A stretch of 64,000 bases of DNA from Anaerostipes caccae L1-92 (GTDB taxonomy: Bacteria > Bacillota > Clostridia > Lachnospirales > Lachnospiraceae), in NCBI RefSeq assembly GCF_014467075.1, contig NZ_AP023027.1, positions 1,367,501-1,431,500 of the forward strand, in the 5' to 3' direction. The notes under the pieces are model-generated. The model ran no database searches and had not been told where the DNA came from. It worked only from the letters and a program-made list of their open reading frames with translations. Of this stretch, positions 16,759-27,350 are shown piece after piece. The translations under genes were made by a program, and so were the position numbers. Position 1 is the first letter of the stretch. Each line of letters starts with the position of its first letter.

Positions 16759-16859
16759 TTCCTAAAATTATTAGGAGCAGTTATAAAATGAAATATAGTA
16801 AAATTAAACTATAGAAAGAGGATACAGGAAATTTTCAATGAGGAGAATGGAGGAGGCAT

Positions 16860-17465
16860 ATGTCAATTGTTCAGTGTCCGAAAGGACATAATTATGATAA
16901 TGAAAAACATGCTCAGTGCCCTTACTGCAGCGGAAGTCAGGCCATTGGAATTACTGTGCCGCTTGACAATACCGGGCTGCAGGAGGAGATCCCTGCGGGG
17001 GCAGGAGAAGGGGGATTCCCGAAGACCATGCCTGTCAGCATGGAACCTGCACAGGGACAGGGGCCGGGAGTTACGGAACCTTATCAAAATGTGACTCAGG
17101 GCCTGGATATTAATGAAGAGGGAGTATCTGCAGTCACAGGATGGCTGGTATGTATCGAGGGCAAGAAAAAGGGGAAGGATTTTCGCCTTCACGGAGAACG
17201 GAATTTTGTGGGAAGGGCGGGCTCCAATGACGTTGTCCTGAACTTTGACGATAAAATCTCTTCTGTCGCCAATATTATTATTTCTTATGACGATGAGGAA
17301 AATGAATTTTACATACAGCCGGGAGAACATCAGAAAAATAACGTCAAATTAAACGGAAAACTTTTGCTGATTCCGGAAACTCTGAAGGACAATGACATTA
17401 TAAAGCTGGGAGAGACAAAACTCTTGTTCCGGAAGTTCTGCAACAGTGATTTTTGTTGGGAGTGA
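16860..17465 (+). CDS. zinc-ribbon / FHA-domain protein
   Basis: A 201-residue cytosolic protein. The N-terminus is a small zinc ribbon (CPKGHNYDNEKHAQCPYC, residues about 6-23), then a linker rich in G, P and E. A C-terminal FHA domain covers about 95-200, with GERNFVGRAGSNDVVL. FHA domains bind phosphothreonine peptides. Here the usual Ser-Arg-x-His turn reads SSVANI, so the His is missing and phosphopeptide binding may be altered. GGAGGAGG precedes the ATG. First gene of a tightly packed island with phosphatases, protease and kinase, so it is a likely phospho-dependent adaptor or substrate of the kinase at 21081. Confidence 0.85.
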   Translation: MSIVQCPKGHNYDNEKHAQCPYCSGSQAIGITVPLDNTGLQEEIPAGAGEGGFPKTMPVSMEPAQGQGPGVTEPYQNVTQGLDINEEGVSAVTGWLVCIEGKKKGKDFRLHGERNFVGRAGSNDVVLNFDDKISSVANIIISYDDEENEFYIQPGEHQKNNVKLNGKLLLIPETLKDNDIIKLGETKLLFRKFCNSDFCWE

Positions 17466-17471
17466 TGAAGG

Positions 17472-18332
17472 ATGTTTGGGAGAAAGAAGAAAAAAAAGGC
17501 ATCCAGGATCGGCAGGACTGTTGAAATCCCCAGGGAAAGCCAGGAGCCTGTCAAAGTCAGCTTTCCGGGCATGGAAGCGGAGTTTAAATTCGGCAATGCC
17601 CAGCACATCGGGACGAGAAAGCAGCAGGAAGACTCCTTTGGCTTTTCAGATCTGTCGGATGCAGAACTGCTGAGCAGGAGAGGGATCTGTGCGGTGCTTT
17701 CCGACGGCATGGGAGGACTTTCTTCCGGAAGAGAAGTGAGCGAATTGACGGTGCTGAGAACGCTTGAATTTTTTAAAACTATGAGTGACAAAGAGCCGGT
17801 CTGTTTACAGATGAAAGCGTTTGCTGCAAAGCTTTGTGAACAAGTCTTTGATTTATACGGAAAAGACGGGAGAGCCGGGGCGGGAGCAACACTGGTGGCC
17901 GTTTTCATATACGGGAACAGTCTTTACTGGTGTACAGCAGGAGACAGCCGCCTGTATTTGTTCCGGGGAGGACGTCTGTATCAGATGAATGAAGACCACG
18001 ATTATAAAAACAGGCTTCTTGGGCGCTATATAAGGGGAGAGGGAAGCTTTCAGGAGGCGGTGAGTCATCCGCAGAAAGATGCACTCACCAGTTATATTGG
18101 CTGCCCTTTGATGGAAGAGACCGATGTAAGCCGCTTTGGATTTGTACTGCAGAACGGAGATAAGATTCTAATGGTGACGGACGGAGTGTACCATGCCCTC
18201 ACCGAAGAAGAGATGGCGGGAAGAATGAGAAAAGATCCCCAGGAGGCCTGCCGGAGGATGATCATGGATGCCGTCTCAAAGAATCTTCCGGGACAGGACA
18301 ATATGACTGCTATGGCGGTCAGCTACAATTAG
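17472..18332 (+). CDS. PP2C-family Ser/Thr protein phosphatase (first of two)
   Basis: A 286-residue PPM/PP2C phosphatase with a basic N-terminal extension of about 40 residues (MFGRKKKKKASRIGRT). Metal-binding motifs: GTRKQQEDSFGF (about 51), AVLSDGMGGLSSGRE (about 76), AGATLVAVF (about 138), CTAGDSRLYLF (about 155), MVTDGVYHAL (about 234) and QDNMTAMAV (about 276). It would remove phosphate from Ser/Thr residues set by the kinase of this island. It starts six bases after the FHA gene stop with no terminator between, so co-transcription is expected. Presence of two PP2C enzymes in one island is unusual. Confidence 0.92.
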   Translation: MFGRKKKKKASRIGRTVEIPRESQEPVKVSFPGMEAEFKFGNAQHIGTRKQQEDSFGFSDLSDAELLSRRGICAVLSDGMGGLSSGREVSELTVLRTLEFFKTMSDKEPVCLQMKAFAAKLCEQVFDLYGKDGRAGAGATLVAVFIYGNSLYWCTAGDSRLYLFRGGRLYQMNEDHDYKNRLLGRYIRGEGSFQEAVSHPQKDALTSYIGCPLMEETDVSRFGFVLQNGDKILMVTDGVYHALTEEEMAGRMRKDPQEACRRMIMDAVSKNLPGQDNMTAMAVSYN

Positions 18333-18347
18333 AATGGAGGGAAGGAT

Positions 18348-19565
18348 ATGACAAAAAGGTTAAAAGTTTCAGTTCTTATTTTGTGTACGGCAGTATTTCT
18401 GTTTGCGGTACCGGTAATGGCTTCTACGCCGACAGAGGCCAAGGACAGCGTTGTATGCATCGCCATCAGGGACAGCAGGGGCAGTATGATCGGATGGGGG
18501 TCCGGATTTGCCATCGGGAAGCCGGGGAAAGATATCCAGTATATTGCCACCAATTGTCATGTGGCTCAGCCCACAGATAAATACGGAAATAAGATTCCGT
18601 GTACGCTTACGGTTTACTTTTCGGCGGCAGCACAGCGCTCTATGACTGCCGAGGTCTATTGGAAGAGTGAGGAGCATGATCTGGCGGTATTGAAGCTGCC
18701 GGAACCTACGGACCAGCGTGAGGCGATGGTACTCTGTCCGATGGAAAAGACGGATATGGACGATGACTTTGCGGCTCTGGGATACCCGGCGGCAAGTATG
18801 GCAGCCGATGTGGTCAAGTTTGATGAGAGTGACATTTCCATCACAAGAGGCGGAATATCCAAGCAGGTGCGGGTAAACGGAACAGACTGTTATCTTGTAG
18901 ATGTCGAGATCAGTCAGGGCAATTCCGGCGGTCCCCTTGTGAACTCAAAAGGCCAGGTGGTGGGCGTCAATACGTTTATGATCGGTGAGAAAGCCAAATA
19001 TGCCGTTGTGATCGACGAACTCATAAGAAACCTGGACCAAAATCAGGTGCCCTTTGCCGTGGCAGGGTCCAATGTTCTCCAAATGGTTCTGATCGCAGGC
19101 ATTACTGCGGCAGTGATCCTTGTGGCTGTCATCATTCTTCTGGTCGTGAAAGGCAAGAAAAAGAAACAGGAACCGTCCCCACAGATTCCGGAAGGACATG
19201 AAATACCGCCGGAACCGGTAGCTTCTGCACCGGTGCCGGAACATAACAGCAGAGAGGCGTCGATCCTTGTAGCGGGAACCGGGGGAAAGCTGGCAAACCG
19301 GAAGTACAGAGTGACACAGGCCACAAAGATTGGACGGGACAGCTCAAAATGCGGTATCTCATTTCCGATAGATACAAAAGGAGTGAGTGCTGTGCACTGC
19401 GAGGTAGAACCCTCAGGCAGCGGAATCCTTCTGAGAGACCTTAACTCTACCTACGGAACATTTCTCGGCAACGGGACAAAGGTGGAACCTGGCGAAAACC
19501 GCCGGCTTAGTTCCGGAGATTCTTTTTATCTGGGAGGAGAAGACAATCGATTTGAGGTGAGATAA
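18348..19565 (+). CDS. membrane-anchored trypsin-like (S1C) protease with cytosolic FHA domain
   Basis: A 405-residue protein of three parts. A signal sequence (residues 1-26) is followed by an outside trypsin-like domain with catalytic His in ATNCHVAQP (about 66), Asp in EEHDLAVLKL (about 107) and Ser in QGNSGGPLV (about 190). A transmembrane helix (about 243-265) then leads to a basic stop-transfer KGKKKK. A C-terminal FHA domain (about 300-405) has KIGRDSSKCGIS, VSAVHCEVE and LNSTYGTFLGNG, so its phosphothreonine site looks intact. This topology lets an extracytoplasmic protease be coupled to intracellular phosphorylation. Its stop overlaps the next ATG by one base. Confidence 0.9.
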   Translation: MTKRLKVSVLILCTAVFLFAVPVMASTPTEAKDSVVCIAIRDSRGSMIGWGSGFAIGKPGKDIQYIATNCHVAQPTDKYGNKIPCTLTVYFSAAAQRSMTAEVYWKSEEHDLAVLKLPEPTDQREAMVLCPMEKTDMDDDFAALGYPAASMAADVVKFDESDISITRGGISKQVRVNGTDCYLVDVEISQGNSGGPLVNSKGQVVGVNTFMIGEKAKYAVVIDELIRNLDQNQVPFAVAGSNVLQMVLIAGITAAVILVAVIILLVVKGKKKKQEPSPQIPEGHEIPPEPVASAPVPEHNSREASILVAGTGGKLANRKYRVTQATKIGRDSSKCGISFPIDTKGVSAVHCEVEPSGSGILLRDLNSTYGTFLGNGTKVEPGENRRLSSGDSFYLGGEDNRFEVR

Positions 19566-20293
19566 TGGCAGAAATTGACGCATTTGTTTATACCAGTCCC
19601 GGAGGAAGGACGGTCAATGAAGATTACTGCAGTTTTGAATTGGGCAGCGGGCGGTCCTCTTTTGTGGTAGCCGACGGGCTGGGAGGTCATGAAAAAGGAG
19701 AGATAGCCTCAGAACTCGCAGGCAGGTTTATGATGGAACGGTTAATGTGTATGGATCAGATTACCGTTGAAAGCCTGAAAGAAGCGCTGAGGGAGACGAA
19801 TCAGTGTGTATTGGACGGACAGAATCAATACCCCGGAATGCGGACTACAATGGCAGCAGTGATTGAAGAAAAAGGACAGTTGTGGGAGTGTCATACAGGG
19901 GACAGCAGGATTTACCTTTTTAAAAACAGGTGCCTTTATTTCCAGTCCAGGGACCACTCGGTCGTACAGCTCTCTGCCGAGATGGGCGATATTTCACCGG
20001 AACAGATCCGGTTCCATCCGGACAGGAGCAAACTCTTAAAAGTTCTTGGGGACTCTCAGGAACTGAAGATTGCGCCGTCGCCGGAGAGTTTTGCTTTAGA
20101 ACCGGGAGATGCTTTTCTTCTCTGTACCGATGGCTTTTGGGAATATGTGTGGGAGACAGAGATGGAGGCAGATCTGGTCAAATCGGAAACTCCCGAAGAG
20201 TGGATTGTCTTTATGGTGAAGCGGGTGCTGCTGAAGGCACCCTCAGACCATGATAATTTTACGGCAGCGGCAGGGATGGTCCGGTCTCTCTGA
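19565..20293 (+). CDS. PP2C-family Ser/Thr protein phosphatase (second of two)
   Basis: A 242-residue PP2C lacking the basic extension of the first copy and only distantly similar to it. Motifs: GGRTVNEDYCSFE (about 12), SFVVADGLGGHEKGE (about 31), MRTTMAAVIEE (about 90), CHTGDSRIYLFKN (about 105), LLCTDGFWEYV (about 176) and DHDNFTAAAGM (about 227). ATG overlaps the protease stop (TAATG), so translation is coupled. The two phosphatases may act on different targets, for example kinase versus FHA-bound partners. Confidence 0.92.
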   Translation: MAEIDAFVYTSPGGRTVNEDYCSFELGSGRSSFVVADGLGGHEKGEIASELAGRFMMERLMCMDQITVESLKEALRETNQCVLDGQNQYPGMRTTMAAVIEEKGQLWECHTGDSRIYLFKNRCLYFQSRDHSVVQLSAEMGDISPEQIRFHPDRSKLLKVLGDSQELKIAPSPESFALEPGDAFLLCTDGFWEYVWETEMEADLVKSETPEEWIVFMVKRVLLKAPSDHDNFTAAAGMVRSL

Positions 20294-20316
20294 AAAAATG
20301 TGAAAGGATGATATAT

Positions 20317-21069
20317 ATGGTTTATGCAAATTTTGGCAAACGTCTGCTGGCCTATTTGATTGATGTTCTGATGCTCAATGTACTGTGCGGAATGATTATC
20401 ATCTTCTATGGCTACTATGTATATATGGCCGTATTTTGGGTGGCTGGCGCGCTTTATTATATTTTATTTGAAGGGAGCAGCTGGCATGCGACACTGGGGA
20501 AAAGAGCCATGGGAATTTCAGTGGTGGACGGAAGCGGAAACGGAATAGAATATGGGACCGCGGCAGTCCGGTACCTGGGAAGGATACTTTCATCCCTGAC
20601 GGTTTTTGTCGGATATTTGATGGCGGCATTCACGGAGAATTCTCAGGCACTGCACGATAAGGTGGCGGGAACTTTTGTCATCGATGGTTCTCCTGTGCCG
20701 GGTAGATATCAGACAGGAGCCGGGCAGGCAGGGAATTTTTCCGGAGGACAGAGCGGCAGGCAGATCGTGGGGATCAGCGGTGAATTTGCGGGCAGAGCGG
20801 CAGCGGTTTCCCCGGCGGGTACTATGATCGGCAGAGATCCAGTGGCATGTCAGATCGCCTTGTCAGCATCGGCACCGGGAGTGTCAAGACATCACTGTCA
20901 GGTGGACTATAACCCTCAGACAAGGATGTTTATACTGAATGATCTGGGGTCTACCTACGGAACATATTTATTAAACGGAACCAGATTAAAGAGCGGACAG
21001 CCGGCCGCGCTTAAGTCCGGGGAGCGCTTCTGTGTAGGCAGCAAAGCAAATATTTTTGAGGTGAGATAG
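20317..21069 (+). CDS. RDD-family membrane protein with C-terminal FHA domain
   Basis: A 250-residue protein. The N-terminal RDD domain (about 1-125, three membrane helices) shows FGKRLLAYLIDVLMLN and, after GTLGKRA-like text, ATLGKRAMGISVVDG. A loop of about 45 residues leads to an FHA domain with TMIGRDPVACQIAL (about 172), PGVSRHHCQVDY (about 194) and LGSTYGTYLLNG (about 214). All core phosphothreonine-binding residues are present. The start at 20317 is preferred to the ATG nine bases upstream because GAAAGG is at the right distance only for it. Third FHA protein of the island; likely a membrane docking site for phosphorylated partners. Confidence 0.88.
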   Translation: MVYANFGKRLLAYLIDVLMLNVLCGMIIIFYGYYVYMAVFWVAGALYYILFEGSSWHATLGKRAMGISVVDGSGNGIEYGTAAVRYLGRILSSLTVFVGYLMAAFTENSQALHDKVAGTFVIDGSPVPGRYQTGAGQAGNFSGGQSGRQIVGISGEFAGRAAAVSPAGTMIGRDPVACQIALSASAPGVSRHHCQVDYNPQTRMFILNDLGSTYGTYLLNGTRLKSGQPAALKSGERFCVGSKANIFEVR

Positions 21070-21080
21070 GAGGCGGGACC

Positions 21081-23603
21081 ATGCATCATGTAGAGGATTT
21101 GTATTTATGTGAATATTGTTTTGCGAAGTTAAGCGGCGGGGAAGATGTCTGTCCGGTGTGCGGCTTTCAAAAAGATACATATGAGCCAGAAGCAGGTGTA
21201 CTGCCGGCAGGAGAGATTTTGGCGGGAAAATATTTAATTGGGAAAATGCTGGGCCGTGGAGGCTTCGGTGTTACGTATCTCGGATTCGATATTCCCGGGA
21301 AGAAAAAAGTAGCCATAAAAGAATATCTCCCGGATGGTCTCGCCGCAAGACAGCCTGGACAGACGATGATCTCTGTCTATACCGGAGAAAAAGAAAATCT
21401 GTTTAAAAAAGGGGCCGAACGGTTTTTTGAAGAGGCAAAAATGGTTTCCAGGTTTAATGGAAATCCAAACATTGTATCTGTCTATGAGTTCTTTTATGAA
21501 AATCAGACGGCCTATTTTGTCATGGAATACCTGGACGGAATGGATCTGAAAAAATATACGGCAAAAAATGGCGGAAAGCTGGAAGTCGATGAGGCCGTGC
21601 GGATCATAGAGCCTATCATGGATGCGCTGACGGTTGTACACAGTGCCGGAGTCCTGCACCGGGATATTTCTCCGGACAATATTTTTCTCACAAATGACAA
21701 TGAGGTAAAATTGATCGACTTCGGCGCTGCCAGACAGGTGATCGGGGAACAGAGCAAAAGCCTTTCCATCGTATTGAAACAGGGGTTTGCTCCGATCGAA
21801 CAGTATCAGACCCATGGACATTTCGGGCCCTGGTCAGATATCTATGCCTTGTGTGCTGCCTTTTATTTTATGATTACAGGCAAGGTTCCGGAGGCCGCCA
21901 TGGACCGGATGGAATTAGATCAGCTTATGCCTCCGTCTGCCATGGGGATTGAGATTCCCATCTCTTTAGAACAGATATTGATGAGAGGGCTTTCGTATAA
22001 AGCTGCCGACCGGCCCCAGAGTGTGATCGAACTGAAAGCCGGGTTCATGGAGGCGCTTCCAAAGCAGGAAGAGGAGCCGGGGGAAACGCCGGTCTACATA
22101 AATCCGTATTCTGTTCAGGAGTCTAGCAAAGAGGAACCGTTTACCGAAGAAAAGACGCAGGAGAGCAAAGGATTTCTGTTTGACAAAAATGAAGATTATT
22201 ATCAGAGAGAATTCTCAAAGATCAGGGAAGGGAAACGGGCAGGATTTCACGTACCGGCTTTTTTCCTGACATTCTTTTGGATGTTTTACCGTAAAATGTT
22301 TCTTGGGGGAGGGATTGTTTTAGGTTTCCTTATAGTTTTTCAGGTCATAGCTGCGGGCGCGGCAGGGACATTTGCAGGTTCTGATGCCAGTATGATATTT
22401 ATGGTCCTGTGCTGCGCGGCAGGCTTAGGAGCGGGTATCCTGTGCGGGCTCATGGGCAATTCCTTCTATTATAAATATTATGAGAAGGTCAATCTTCAGG
22501 CCAAGATACAGGGAGAGCAGATCTACCGAAAGAAGAGCGGTGTCTTAACCGGAGCGCCTATGGCGGGAGTGATGGTTGGAGCTTTTATTGTAAATGGACT
22601 GTTTGCAGTGATTTCCTCCCAGGTTCTCGGAAACCTGACCAATTCATATCCTTCTTCCTCACGGGCAGGAACCGGAAATACCGGCAGTTCTGTATCCACC
22701 ACATCCCAGGGCGATCTTCACAAGGCGGTTGTGCAGGATATCAGAAATCAATATTATAACGATGAAGAAAAAGGTGCAACGGTCGGCCAGGTATTTGATC
22801 TTTATTTTGACAACGGAAGATGGGATGCAGTAGGCACCGACTCCTCCAGCTATCATGTGACCTTTCAGGGGCAGGCGTATTATGCCAACCGTCTCAGGAG
22901 TTTTCAGTTTGAGTTTGCCATGGAAGGGCAGGAGATGACGTGTAAAAAGATCCTGATCGGCGGCACGGAGATCGCGTCTGACAAATGGAGTTCTCTTTTA
23001 AAGGTCATTGAAATGTATTATAAGGGCATGTCTGCAAAATCAGTGGATGCGGCGCTGAATCTCATGTTTGTCAACCAGAGGGTATATACGACTCTTCCGG
23101 AAGCACAGTATCTGCTGAGAAAGTCCGGACTTACTTACCAGATGAAAACCAACCGCAGCGGGGAAAGGAAAGAATTGTCTGTGGCGGGAGGGAAAGCGTC
23201 GCTCAGGTTTTATAAAACGGTGCGCACTATGGATACAGTTCCGTATGGAAGTTATCTCTTGATCGTCAAGGACCAGAAGGCAGATGCCACAGCGTTTCTT
23301 ACTTATTGTATGGGGTGGAGCACTTCTTCCGCCACTCAATTTTATTCAGGCACTGACCGGTACCGCCTCAGCGAGAGCGGGCTGAAAAACAAATCGGAGA
23401 CCGAACTTATGATCATGAGAAACGAGATTTTTGCAAGACACTACCGGAAATTTGAAGATCCGCTGCTTCAGGCTGTTTTTCTTACAAAAAACTGGTATCG
23501 CGCCGTATATTCCGATAGCCAGTTTAAAGAAAACTGGAATGATGCGGAGGAATATAACTTAAAATTAATCGTGAAAGTAGAAGAGGATCTGGGATATCGA
23601 TGA
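21081..23603 (+). CDS. transmembrane Ser/Thr protein kinase with YARHG domain
   Basis: An 840-residue kinase. The N-terminal zinc ribbon is CEYCFAKLSGGEDVCPVCG (9-27). The kinase domain spans about 50-320: Gly loop MLGRGGFGVTYLG (about 56), Lys in VAIKEYL (about 77), catalytic loop HRDISPDNIF (about 193) and DFGAAR (about 214). The usual Lys of HRDLKPxN is Ser here. DUF2628-like membrane helices follow (about 395-520), with another helix near 505. The outer part ends in a YARHG domain (about 775-840; LMIMRNEIFARHY). The YARHG domain is thought to act outside the cell, perhaps on peptidoglycan. Overlaps the amidase start by four bases. Confidence 0.93.
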   Translation: MHHVEDLYLCEYCFAKLSGGEDVCPVCGFQKDTYEPEAGVLPAGEILAGKYLIGKMLGRGGFGVTYLGFDIPGKKKVAIKEYLPDGLAARQPGQTMISVYTGEKENLFKKGAERFFEEAKMVSRFNGNPNIVSVYEFFYENQTAYFVMEYLDGMDLKKYTAKNGGKLEVDEAVRIIEPIMDALTVVHSAGVLHRDISPDNIFLTNDNEVKLIDFGAARQVIGEQSKSLSIVLKQGFAPIEQYQTHGHFGPWSDIYALCAAFYFMITGKVPEAAMDRMELDQLMPPSAMGIEIPISLEQILMRGLSYKAADRPQSVIELKAGFMEALPKQEEEPGETPVYINPYSVQESSKEEPFTEEKTQESKGFLFDKNEDYYQREFSKIREGKRAGFHVPAFFLTFFWMFYRKMFLGGGIVLGFLIVFQVIAAGAAGTFAGSDASMIFMVLCCAAGLGAGILCGLMGNSFYYKYYEKVNLQAKIQGEQIYRKKSGVLTGAPMAGVMVGAFIVNGLFAVISSQVLGNLTNSYPSSSRAGTGNTGSSVSTTSQGDLHKAVVQDIRNQYYNDEEKGATVGQVFDLYFDNGRWDAVGTDSSSYHVTFQGQAYYANRLRSFQFEFAMEGQEMTCKKILIGGTEIASDKWSSLLKVIEMYYKGMSAKSVDAALNLMFVNQRVYTTLPEAQYLLRKSGLTYQMKTNRSGERKELSVAGGKASLRFYKTVRTMDTVPYGSYLLIVKDQKADATAFLTYCMGWSTSSATQFYSGTDRYRLSESGLKNKSETELMIMRNEIFARHYRKFEDPLLQAVFLTKNWYRAVYSDSQFKENWNDAEEYNLKLIVKVEEDLGYR

Positions 23604-24427
23604 AAAACAGGATGAAAATTTTAGCCGCGTCAGTGTTGATTTTATGTGCGGCAGTGATTGGATTTGCAGTGCTTTATTTTGTTCGGGGAGACGGAAAAAA
23701 TAAGAACGGTTTATCCGGTACAAAAAGGACTGCATCGAAAAAGACAACTCAAAAGCCAACCCAAAAGCCTGAGAAAAAGACCTATATTGTAGTCATTGAT
23801 CCGGGGCATCAGAGAGAACAGGATACGTCAGAGGAGCCGATCGGGCCGGGAGCCAGTGAGACAAAGCCGAAAGTCTCCTCGGGTACGAGCGGAGTTTCAT
23901 CAGGGCTTCAGGAACATGAGCTGACTCTTCAGGTCTCAAAGAAACTAAAAAAGGAACTGAAAAAGAGGGGCTATACTGTATATATGACCCGGACAACAGC
24001 GGATGTGAACATAAGCAATGCAGAACGGGCGGGCTACGCAAAGAAAATGGGAGCGGACATTTTTATAAGGATTCATGCAAATGGTTCAGAGAGCCATGCG
24101 GTCAGAGGAGCACTTTCCATGGCACCGTCTAAGAAGAATCCATATGCAGCTTCCCTGGCGGTCAAATCTCAAAAGCTTTCCAGAATGGTTCTGGACGAAT
24201 ATTGTAAGGCCACGGGGATGAAAAACAGGGGAGTCATGCTGACAGACCAGATGAGCGGCATTAACTGGGCTTCTATGCCGGTTACAATCCTGGAAATGGG
24301 CTTTATGAGCAATCCAAAAGATGATATGGCCATGAAAGAGAAAGAATTTCAAGAGAAAATGGCAGCAGGAGCGGCAGCCGGCATTGATCGTTATGTACAG
24401 GAACTTGAGAGTGAGGAGGACCGGTAA
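23600..24427 (+). CDS. N-acetylmuramoyl-L-alanine amidase (Amidase_3)
   Basis: A 275-residue secreted or anchored cell-wall hydrolase. A signal or anchor helix (8-30) is followed by a Lys/Thr-rich linker (about 35-60), then the catalytic domain. Zinc ligands: first His in VVIDPGHQ (about 72), Glu in LQEHELTLQVSK (about 105) and His in FIRIHANGS (about 157). A Glu near VTILEMGFMSN (about 235) completes the site. It cleaves the bond between MurNAc and the stem peptide. The ATGA overlap couples it to the kinase gene, so cell-wall cleavage is likely an output of, or is monitored by, this signalling island. Confidence 0.92.
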   Translation: MKNRMKILAASVLILCAAVIGFAVLYFVRGDGKNKNGLSGTKRTASKKTTQKPTQKPEKKTYIVVIDPGHQREQDTSEEPIGPGASETKPKVSSGTSGVSSGLQEHELTLQVSKKLKKELKKRGYTVYMTRTTADVNISNAERAGYAKKMGADIFIRIHANGSESHAVRGALSMAPSKKNPYAASLAVKSQKLSRMVLDEYCKATGMKNRGVMLTDQMSGINWASMPVTILEMGFMSNPKDDMAMKEKEFQEKMAAGAAAGIDRYVQELESEEDR

Positions 24428-24440
24428 CAGGTCCTCTTTG
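24416..24440. terminator. terminator between convergent amidase and response-regulator genes
   Basis: GAGGACC (24416-24422) pairs with GGTCCTC (24430-24436), then TTTG. It overlaps the amidase stop codon. Confidence 0.7.
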
Positions 24441-24441
24441 T

Positions 24442-25026
24442 TTAACATTTTTCTGAAAAAATATGGACTAATTCTTTTTGGCTTTTCAGACCCAGCTTTT
24501 TTAGAACAGAGGTCTTTTGGTTGGCGATCGTCTTAGATGAGGACTGCAGGTCCACCGATTTGCCAAGCATCAGATCGAAAACCGACTTTTCAGCGGGAGA
24601 AAGGCAGGAAAGAATTGCGGCATGGATCAGATACTTTTGAGGGGTGCTGCCGCAGGCGGTATTTCGGATCGTGTCTGTGAGAAGTTCAAACTGACTTTTA
24701 AAAACATAGGCAGAGGCAAACGATCCGACACAGGCATCGATGACAATTTCTGGATCTTCAAAGGCAGTCAGAATGATAATTTTTGCATCAGTTGCAAGCC
24801 GGATCTGCCTCCCTGCTTCGATGCCGTCTAAGTCTGTGGAGGACAGATTTAAGTCCATCAGTACGATATCAGGCTGAAGTTCCATGGCCAAAGCCAAGGC
24901 ATGGGAAGCATCCTGACACTCGCCCAGAACAGAAAAACCATCCAGTGTACTCAGTGTATTTTTTATGAGATAACAAAAGTCAAGATCATCTTCAACAATT
25001 AAAATTCGAATAGTGTTAGTTTTCAT
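24442..25026 (-). CDS. response regulator with C-terminal helix-turn-helix
   Basis: A 194-residue two-component regulator. Receiver domain (1-125): acidic pair VEDDLDF (about 12) and phosphoacceptor Asp in IVLMDLNLSS (about 57), with KSQ near 110 where most receivers have a conserved Lys. A shorter LuxR-like DNA-binding region follows (about 140-194), with LSPAEKSVFDLM and a recognition helix around KTIANQKTSVLKKLG. The ATG overlaps the kinase gene end, so the two form a coupled pair. Target genes are unknown. Confidence 0.88.
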   Translation of the reverse strand: MKTNTIRILIVEDDLDFCYLIKNTLSTLDGFSVLGECQDASHALALAMELQPDIVLMDLNLSSTDLDGIEAGRQIRLATDAKIIILTAFEDPEIVIDACVGSFASAYVFKSQFELLTDTIRNTACGSTPQKYLIHAAILSCLSPAEKSVFDLMLGKSVDLQSSSKTIANQKTSVLKKLGLKSQKELVHIFSEKC

Positions 25027-26467
25027 GGCTCAGTCCTCTCTTCTGGCGAACCAGACGGTACTTTAGGGGAAAATAGAGAAAGAAGATGGTGCCTTTCCCC
25101 GGGATACTCTTTACTTTGATCGCTCCATGGTGTTCTTTCATCACTTTCGTGCAGTAGTAAAGGCCGAGACCCAGGTGATGATTGGTAGTCTTTGTCGTAT
25201 GATACGGTTCGAATAAATAAGGAAGTTCCTCTTTCGGGATGCCGCATCCCTTATCTTCAACAGAGATGACGGTTTGTCTGCGCCCTGCCTGTTCGACACA
25301 TGTCAGCTTGATTTCGCCTTTGGAAGCCGAGGCCTCGATGGCGTTGTTGAGCAGATTATTCATGACCTCCAGGACGTGGGAACTGTCGCAGAGCAGATAC
25401 AGATCCCGGGGACAGCTGACGGAAAACCGGATGCCCTTCCGCATATCTGTTGGGATATTTTGAATGCTTTGTTCCAGCAGGGGACGGACGGGAGTTTCTT
25501 TCAGATCCAATGAAATTCTGTCGGAATAAATTTTTGTCTTGTTGACGAAATTCGTCAGATGGGAGACGGACCGGGAGAGGATATCGAGTTCTTCCCGGAT
25601 TCCTTCCGGATGTTTCTGCTGCATGATGCGCAGACACCACTGAATTTTTGAAAGCTCATTTTTTAGTGCATGTCCCACATATTGGGCATTCTTCTGAATC
25701 ACGGCCTCACTGCCAGTCCAGTCATAAGTTTCCCGTTTCAGTCTGGTACCGAGAATCCCATCTTCAAATAAATTTTTGACGTAGTAGAGCAGAAGAAGGA
25801 AAATGATGAAGATATTGCCCTGCCATACTTTAAACAGGCCCCTGAGTCCCAGCAGATGAATGGCAAACGCGCTGAACAGCCAGTACCAAAGGGGTGTCAG
25901 CACAACGACTGCAGCCATTTTCCGCTGCCGGTAATTAGCCTGGAGCCGTTCACGGACGAGGGTGCTCAGCAGAAGAAATGTCATGAAAATACCGCAGCTC
26001 CAGTTATATATGGCGGCCAGGAGATAATAAGTACGGTCGTTCAGCTGGTAAAATCGCGTGTCTGCAATCGGATATACAACGGAGAAAATGACCGCAGGGA
26101 CAAAGGTAATAAATCTTAAAAGGCGGAATGATTTCGGATGCCTCTGGTCAAAATTACTGAAATAGAAACTGAACATGATGGAACACGGCATGGCCAGATA
26201 GTAAAGAACTCCGGTGAGCACAGAGTAAATATGATAAGAAAGTTCCGGACTATAAAAAGAGAGATCCGCAGTCAGGGAGGGGTCCAGGGAAAAATAAAGA
26301 TATTCTTTAAATACGCCCATACTGAAACAGAATCCCGCAAAAGCACACCACTGATTAGACTTGTTTCTCCTGTTGGAGAGATAAACAAGCAAAAACAATG
26401 CCCATACAAGAATAGTGAACAATAACAGGGCAGTTCCGGGCATGCCCCTGGATGTGCCGACTCCCAT
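25016..26467 (-). CDS. membrane sensor histidine kinase
   Basis: A 483-residue kinase. Seven predicted membrane helices in the N-terminal half (about 10-235) suggest a 7TM sensor. The phosphoacceptor region is around VGHALKNELSKIQW (about 265), an atypical H-box. The ATPase domain follows (about 345-470) with N box NNLLNNAIEAS, G1 VEDKGCGIP and G2 GLGLYYCTKV. GGAGG precedes the ATG. It presumably phosphorylates the regulator encoded next. The ligand is unknown. The neighbouring envelope enzymes (amidase, L,D-transpeptidase) hint at a cell-envelope signal, but that is only context. Confidence 0.9.
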   Translation of the reverse strand: MGVGTSRGMPGTALLLFTILVWALFLLVYLSNRRNKSNQWCAFAGFCFSMGVFKEYLYFSLDPSLTADLSFYSPELSYHIYSVLTGVLYYLAMPCSIMFSFYFSNFDQRHPKSFRLLRFITFVPAVIFSVVYPIADTRFYQLNDRTYYLLAAIYNWSCGIFMTFLLLSTLVRERLQANYRQRKMAAVVVLTPLWYWLFSAFAIHLLGLRGLFKVWQGNIFIIFLLLLYYVKNLFEDGILGTRLKRETYDWTGSEAVIQKNAQYVGHALKNELSKIQWCLRIMQQKHPEGIREELDILSRSVSHLTNFVNKTKIYSDRISLDLKETPVRPLLEQSIQNIPTDMRKGIRFSVSCPRDLYLLCDSSHVLEVMNNLLNNAIEASASKGEIKLTCVEQAGRRQTVISVEDKGCGIPKEELPYLFEPYHTTKTTNHHLGLGLYYCTKVMKEHHGAIKVKSIPGKGTIFFLYFPLKYRLVRQKRGLSHEN

Positions 26468-26669
26468 AATTTTTTCCTCCCATAAATTTCATCAATTCTA
26501 TACTAATATAATCTAAAAAAATCGTCTACATCCTGTCTGGAATTTCTTCCTAAAGTTTATAGGAAGATAATATTTAGCGAATGAATTGTTTGCGTACAAA
26601 TAAAATTTCTCAAAACTCTTTTTTTCTTTGGAATATTTGTGTATAATAACCCGGGAGGGGAATAGAATA

Positions 26670-27350
26670 ATGGTGAAAAAAAGATGGATGGCAATCGTTC
26701 TTATGGCAGTGCTCATTTGGAATATGGCAGGAACAAATTTAGAAACCCGAACGGCCTATGCAGCGTCTAAACAGACAATATGGCAAAAAAAGTTCAGTCA
26801 GTACCGGTATAACAAGTCAGTAAACCAGCTGATTTTTGTGAAATACAAAAAGAAATCAAAAGCAACTGTCTATATGTATCAAAAAAGAGATCATAAATGG
26901 AAGCGCATTTTGAAATGTAAAGGTTATGTAGGGAAAAAAGGAATCCACAAGAAGAGGGAAGGAGATCTGAAGACACCTTCCGGCACTTTTGGATTCACAG
27001 GTGCTTTTGGGATCAAAAAAAATCCGGGTGCAAAGATGAATTATACCAGAGTCAATAAGTACCTCTACTGGTGCGGGGATAAAAAATATTATAATCGGCT
27101 GATAGACGTGAGAAAAAAGAAGCACCGCTGCCGCGGAGAGCATCTGATTGACTATAAACCACATTATTATTATGGAATGTTTCTTAATTATAATCCAAAA
27201 CATAAATATAAAAAAGGATCTGCAATATTTCTCCACTGTAAAGGAAAGAAGCCGTACACGGCAGGATGTATTGCAGTAAGCCGGAAGAACATGAAGAAGA
27301 TCATAAAAAATGCGGAATCTGGGGCAAGGATCTGCATTTACCGAAAATAA
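26670..27350 (+). CDS. secreted L,D-transpeptidase (YkuD domain)
   Basis: A 226-residue exported protein. The signal sequence ends near TAYAA (about residue 31). The YkuD catalytic domain has the motif HCKGKKPYTAGCIAVS (about 187-202) with the nucleophile Cys and upstream His. The domain makes or exchanges 3-3 peptidoglycan crosslinks, or attaches proteins. The chain is very basic (many KK and KY pairs), suggesting wall binding. The start at 26670 follows GGGAGGGG. A TATAAT-like -10 is at 26642-26647. Confidence 0.9.
   Translation: MVKKRWMAIVLMAVLIWNMAGTNLETRTAYAASKQTIWQKKFSQYRYNKSVNQLIFVKYKKKSKATVYMYQKRDHKWKRILKCKGYVGKKGIHKKREGDLKTPSGTFGFTGAFGIKKNPGAKMNYTRVNKYLYWCGDKKYYNRLIDVRKKKHRCRGEHLIDYKPHYYYGMFLNYNPKHKYKKGSAIFLHCKGKKPYTAGCIAVSRKNMKKIIKNAESGARICIYRK

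Follow-up and report, generated by a model that had tools for sequence, protein, structure and literature searches.

The analysed stretch of DNA, hereafter the window, comprises 64,000 nucleotides of the single-contig, 3.59 Mb genome of Anaerostipes caccae L1-92 (G000:C1:1367501-1431500). Between its positions 16860 and 24427 lie seven open reading frames (ORFs), all on the + strand, that encode FHA proteins, two PP2C phosphatases, a membrane protease, a Ser/Thr kinase and an amidase. A previous sequence-only reading had described them as one operon forming a phospho-signalling circuit that senses the cell wall and adjusts its cleavage. The gene run is borne out, with all ORFs in place and operon-like gaps, calculated from the ORF coordinates, of +6, +15, -1, +14, +11 and -4 bases. 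The domains are also as claimed: from 5' to 3', Pfam reports FHA; PP2C; Trypsin_2 and FHA; PP2C; RDD and FHA; Pkinase, DUF2628 and YARHG; and Amidase_3. That reading stopped short, however, of a two-component pair on the - strand just beyond its boundaries and of a palindrome shared by both gene groups, which belong to the picture. The features are as follows.

16760-16776, + strand: palindrome TCCTAAAATTATTAGGA, predicted operator 5' of the operon, overlapping the -35 position
16794-16799, + strand: predicted -10 box, TATAGT, exactly 17 bp past the palindrome
16860-17465, + strand: FHA protein (FHA1) with an N-terminal Cys/His knuckle motif and SxxN in place of SxxH
17472-18332, + strand: PP2C phosphatase A, metal-binding motifs present
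18348-19565, + strand: trypsin-FHA protein with an N-terminal signal-like segment, an HtrA/MarP-like trypsin domain, a hydrophobic segment (233-273) and a canonical FHA domain
19565-20293, + strand: PP2C phosphatase B, metal-binding motifs present
20308-21069, + strand: RDD membrane domain and canonical FHA domain; accessory (missing from related locus L156)
21081-23603, + strand: zinc ribbon, PpkA-like kinase, hydrophobic DUF2628, and outer NTF2-like (weak) and YARHG parts
23600-24427, + strand: Amidase_3 protein with an N-terminal hydrophobic anchor; accessory (missing from related loci L156 and L012)
24409-24443, + strand: terminator-like hairpin between the amidase and response regulator genes
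24442-25026, - strand: response regulator (RR), receiver and weak LuxR-type (GerE) output
25016-26467, - strand: histidine kinase (HK) with multiple transmembrane segments and HATPase_c, adjacent to the RR and presumably paired with it
26548-26564, - strand: palindrome, copy 2 (TCCTATAAACTTTAGGA), preceding the HK gene

Proteins of the operon

The catalytic motifs are present in all the enzymes of the operon. Both phosphatases have the four PP2C motifs, the first reading RKQQED in A and RTVNED in B; the kinase has VAIK, HRD and DFG, the protease the His/Asp/Ser residues of trypsin, and the amidase DPGH, IHAN and EMGF. At the N terminus of the kinase are four invariant Cys residues spaced CxxC...CxxC, and its hydropathy profile has three hydrophobic stretches (401-435, 427-462 and 486-520), which read as three transmembrane segments such that the kinase domain would be inside the cell and YARHG outside. 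The hydrophobic stretches of the trypsin-FHA protein (1-30 and 233-273) read as a signal peptide and one transmembrane segment, placing the protease outside and the FHA domain inside. The outward-facing sensor and protease proposed earlier are supported. If the joining of an FHA domain to a trypsin-like protease across the membrane is true, it would make an inside-out switch, in which cytosolic phosphothreonine controls proteolysis outside.

Compared by sequence with solved structures, the kinase domain is nearest to PpkA (5hnv, 172.6 bits; the next, StkP, 104.4), and Foldseek also ranks PpkA first, in a comparison that rests on a poor structure model. A PASTA kinase system of the PknB/PrkC type was considered and set aside, as the outer part has no Pfam match to PASTA repeats and carries DUF2628 followed by YARHG instead. 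For the protease protein, the top NCBIfam model is MarP, at 62.1 bits and far under the 250-bit cut-off; MarP, unlike the window protease, is not known to have an FHA domain.

The protease and RDD proteins both carry FHA domains with the canonical GR, SxxH and N(G) motifs. The phosphothreonine docking put forward in the sequence-only reading is doubtful for FHA1, in which Asn replaces the His of SxxH. The zinc ribbon assigned to FHA1 is visible as a CPYC knuckle by motif only; Pfam reports none there.

The whole genome has four places with FHA, four with PP2C (PF13672) and three with a kinase, and the operon holds three, two and one of them, respectively; the clustering of these genes is not a matter of chance. 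The sole FHA place outside the operon (L139, 10083-11237) belongs to a gene run that is also found in genome G401 (L159) and looks pilus-like by eye. Second and third PP2C/kinase pairs are located at L140 (8419-11026) and at C1:2517669-2519161.

The two-component pair and the shared palindrome

When the region upstream of the operon was aligned with that of L156, a locus of the same genus, an isolated conserved block emerged that corresponds to TCCTAAAATTATTAGGA, followed by a shorter AT-rich block; a related palindrome precedes the HK gene. The window contains two matches to the pattern TCCYA-N7-TRGGA, where 0.25 would be expected, and when the zone upstream of the operon was shuffled 2000 times, 3 of the shuffled sequences contained such a palindrome. 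On the operon side the distance from palindrome to -10 box is 17 bp in the window (TATAGT), in L156 (TATAGT) and in L012 (TATAAT), a layout that resembles that of LuxR-type regulators binding over the -35 position.

Relatives of the HK (E <= 1e-30) are present in 16 of the 397 genomes of the family. We examined the zones from -350 to +150 around 16 HK starts with the pattern derived from the window, L156 and L012: 10 contain the exact palindrome (shuffle mean 0.03, maximum 1), and among the 13 zones not used to derive the pattern, seven have it exactly and two (L085 and L134) with a single mismatch. The HK/RR pair lies beside an FHA/PP2C/kinase cluster in five loci, namely the window itself, L072 (G250), L085 (G095), L156 and L012. 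The first three of these belong to the 16 HK genomes, for which 11 further loci were examined (L128-L138, with G021 and G329 left out); these eleven control stretches, picked only for an HK relative, contain no FHA, PP2C or kinase gene.

Recurrence of the gene set and closest loci

Kinase relatives (E <= 1e-40) were found in 79 of the 397 family genomes, including that of A. caccae L1-92. Of the 67 kinase loci examined, several of which are truncated by the end of a contig, 34 combine FHA, PP2C and kinase, and in 18 FHA1 accompanies at least two PP2Cs and a kinase. The kinase, phosphatases and FHA proteins recur as a unit, which supports the phospho-signalling logic of the sequence-only reading, and similar islands recur within the same bacterial family, probably Lachnospiraceae to judge by the relatives Merdimonas faecis and Anaerostipes sp. 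Of 36 FHA1 genes, those of the window and L012 included, 27 adjoin a PP2C gene with the same orientation, and the window fits an island composition of FHA1, PP2C, protease-FHA or kinase-FHA, PP2C and zinc-ribbon kinase. Among the other partners, the 67 loci include VWA-FHA in 17, protease-FHA in eight, kinase-FHA in eight and RDD-FHA in none. Protease-FHA relatives (E <= 1e-20) are present in 11 of the 397 genomes, own included, those of G006 and G316 by their FHA part only. RDD-FHA matches (1e-25) were found in three of 373 genomes of the order, own included, one of them partial and at a contig end; in the genus, 4 of 11 genomes have any RDD-FHA match, which is full-length in the own genome alone. 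Elsewhere, a single protein of L183 (7593-9578; G250) matches kinase, RDD and FHA, which in the window are on separate proteins.

A search for the same gene order in other genomes, as the sequence-only reading had suggested, found the core in order in L156, L012 and L179. L156 (G397) has FHA1, PP2C, protease-FHA, PP2C and a kinase with DUF2628 and YARHG, followed by convergent RR and HK genes, and lacks both RDD-FHA and amidase. The identities to the window proteins are 76% (FHA1), 59% (first PP2C), 63% (protease-FHA), 63% (second PP2C), 51% (kinase), 66% (RR) and 60% (HK), and the outer flanks, a NUDIX gene on one side and a periplasmic-binding protein gene on the other, are unlike those of the window. 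In L012, from Merdimonas faecis, the first six genes follow the order of the window, the seventh encodes a protein with a weak likeness to kinases, and a divergent HK/RR pair lies upstream. In L179, from another family of the same order, a kinase gene and a gene for 174 amino acids precede FHA1, PP2C, protease-FHA, PP2C, VWA-FHA, RDD-FHA and a zinc-ribbon kinase; the contig stops about 320 bases past the kinase, such that a downstream amidase or HK is there neither visible nor excluded. The module thus seems to be patchily distributed and prone to rearrangement, with some parts that are optional, such as RDD-FHA, which L156 lacks.

Other islands were seen along the way. The genus has a second, different FHA island in L157 (3458-12506; G397) and L158 (3469-12534; G398), with genes for FHA1, VWA-FHA, kinase-FHA, PP2C and FHA proteins; L157, the only one of the two scanned for families, also has an ABC transporter whose N-terminal part bears two FHA domains, reminiscent of Rv1747. 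Another ABC transporter with two N-terminal FHA domains lies near zinc-ribbon kinases in L078 (6904-9369). L068, L071, L074 and L079 have a pair of PP2C and zinc-ribbon kinase within a similarly laid-out run, in which ABC-2 membrane and transglutaminase-core proteins were found in L074, the one scanned. In the window, a gene for a YkuD-type L,D-transpeptidase domain protein (26628-27350) is divergent from the HK gene; no relatives of it were found among L012, L068-L147 and L156-L159.

The amidase and wall cleavage

The sequence-only reading had made controlled wall cleavage the purpose of the module, with amidase and protease as integral outputs. The amidase gene does overlap the kinase stop by four bases and precedes the terminator-like hairpin, and MarP, the model nearest to the protease protein, activates a wall hydrolase in mycobacteria (PMC6628586); the score of that match, however, is far below its cut-off. 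Moreover, the amidase is missing from L156 and L012, the two close loci where its place is visible, and was found in 1 of the 67 related loci, of which some are truncated at contig ends, and there not adjacent to the kinase. Wall cleavage therefore looks like an add-on of the own genome. From the proposed wall-reading, wall-cleaving circuit, the recurring phospho-signalling core is retained, but not the amidase or, given its absence from L156, the RDD-FHA protein as fixed parts, and we regard the full circuit as unlikely.

Alternative explanations and proposed mechanism

From the gene order, domains, catalytic motifs, recurrence, HK/RR linkage and shared palindrome observed here, we predict that the locus is probably a threonine-phosphorylation module of the PpkA/PppA/Fha kind, switched by a two-component pair of its own and with a role in envelope signalling. 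Several observations weigh against this proposal. On the protein side, VIA-align places PknB above PpkA, again with the poor structure model, and the best NCBIfam kinase model is a PASTA kinase (165.2 bits, cut-off 450); PknB carries PASTA repeats, unlike the window kinase. FHA1 reads SVAN at the usual SxxH position, as does FHA1 of L156, which is outside the 38-row FHA1 alignment; of these 38 sequences, 34 keep the histidine and two, including that of the window, have Asn. As for the operator, no -10 box is found at 17 bp on the kinase side in L072 and L085, and the best site has two or more mismatches in 4 of the 16 HK zones (L129, L133, L136 and L138), with exact palindromes farther upstream in L129 and L136. 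The loose pattern shows no genome-wide excess over its reversed control (11 places against 14). The refined pattern TCCYAWWWNNWWTRGGA, chosen after the sites were seen, has five places in the genome, of which the three outside the window are all inside ORFs and the two intergenic ones are those of the window. Regarding the linkage, any HK match is present in 6 of the 67 kinase loci, and one similar to the HK of the window only in L072 and L085. The HKs of the five linked loci are scattered over the tree rather than united in a clade and require at least four changes (175 of 500 shuffles are as low); linkage of the HK to the cluster was thus gained or lost more than once.

This scattering of the linked HKs speaks for an alternative in which the adjacency and the palindrome are a coincidence or simple autoregulation, with the Ser/Thr operon controlled otherwise. 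Autoregulation alone could in fact explain many of the sites, because HK genes of the same family away from clusters also have the palindrome. However, it leaves aside the separate palindrome on the operon side, 9.8 kb from the HK copy in the window and 8.2 kb in L156 and in both cases 17 bp from the -10 box, and we find this explanation quite unlikely. A role in anti-phage or stress defence, akin to TerY-P triads or kinase-type defence systems, is suggested by PADLOC, which matches the kinase to mad6 and PD-T4-6, PP2C B to PDC-M21C (2.6e-15), the trypsin part to RT-Protease_XI and, weakly, the RDD part to PD-T4-6, and by the relatives in which VWA-FHA accompanies PP2C and zinc-ribbon kinases, as in the TerY-P triad described in PMC11090510. 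Nevertheless, the PADLOC matches are single shared domains that form no complete system, and Pfam finds neither a nuclease, methylase or helicase family nor a VWA protein in the seven genes. The zinc ribbon of the kinase is N-terminal rather than C-terminal, membership in a TerY-P triad was discarded for want of a separate VWA protein in the operon, and in our judgement the outer protease, the amidase and the two-component neighbour better suit envelope signalling; defence is thus very unlikely.

The PpkA/PppA/Fha1 pathway is tied to type VI secretion, and the locus could by analogy provide accessory signalling for a secretion system similar to type VI or type VII. The likeness of the kinase domain to PpkA and weak matches of two FHA proteins to the type VI TagH model speak for it. 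Against it, the ten scanned genes of the window include no secretion gene, although no search was aimed at EssC/FtsK-type, sheath or Hcp genes and the surroundings of L012 and L156 had no systematic scan. WXG100 proteins have no place in the whole genome, for which a type VII accessory was discarded. We consider a secretion role most improbable.

Under the threonine-phosphorylation module with a two-component switch that we favour, an envelope signal would act on the membrane HK, and the RR would bind TCCYA-N7-TRGGA, a candidate operator over the -35 position, presumably activating its own HK/RR genes and the seven-gene operon. The outer YARHG/NTF2-like part of the kinase may sense the wall, and the PpkA-like domain would phosphorylate threonines on itself and on partners, which the two PP2C phosphatases would reverse. 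Inside the cell, the FHA domains of the trypsin and RDD proteins could dock on phosphothreonines, which would recruit both proteins to their phosphorylated partners; from the domain order, such docking might place or gate the outside protease. The amidase would be an extra of this genome and may be processed by the protease, a suggestion that draws only on the analogy with MarP and RipA. We propose more tentatively, as a possibility that we hold less probable than not, that one portable locus joins two chemistries, in which the His-Asp pair would set the amount of the PpkA-like module and phosphothreonine docking would gate a membrane-spanning, wall-acting protease, optionally via the amidase. 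The predicted operator makes the link from two-component system to Ser/Thr module directly testable.

Comparison with known systems

The literature searched, restricted to open-licence papers, yielded no description of this gene combination, in line with the earlier claim that no fully described system has this set, but the core logic matches that of PpkA/PppA/Fha1 and of PknA/PknB/phosphatase/FhaA/FhaB. PMC6213207 describes the PpkA/PppA/Fha1 pathway of Pseudomonas aeruginosa as a set of kinase, PP2C and FHA protein. As there, the window kinase, nearest to PpkA by sequence, shares its operon with PP2C and FHA genes; unlike there, the window has two PP2Cs, FHA domains on a protease and on an RDD membrane protein, a YARHG outer part, and a two-component neighbour with a shared palindrome, and no secretion gene among the scanned neighbours. 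The Mycobacteriales operon fhaA/fhaB-rodA-pbpA-pknA-pknB-phosphatase also unites kinases, a Ser/Thr phosphatase and FHA proteins (two there) in one envelope-related operon, but with wall synthesis genes instead of an amidase, and the passage that describes it mentions neither a protease nor an RDD protein nor a two-component pair (PMC11898655).

With the TerY-P triad, given in PMC11090510 as VWA, PP2C and a kinase with a zinc ribbon, the window shares the zinc-ribbon kinase and PP2C, and relatives of the module add a VWA protein; it differs in having no VWA, an N-terminal ribbon, FHA domains, and membrane and outer parts. YARHG, here on the outer part of a kinase, is a proposed wall binder, and PMC3355149 names six kinase-linked sequences and contains the term FHA zero times. 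MarP, which processes RipA, is like the window protease a membrane-anchored, outer, chymotrypsin-like enzyme, but has four N-terminal transmembrane helices (PMC6628586), where the window protein has a signal-like segment, a further hydrophobic stretch and an FHA domain in the cytosol. Sets of kinase, PP2C and FHA proteins are thus already known; new here is the HK/RR pair beside such a cluster and the palindrome that they share.

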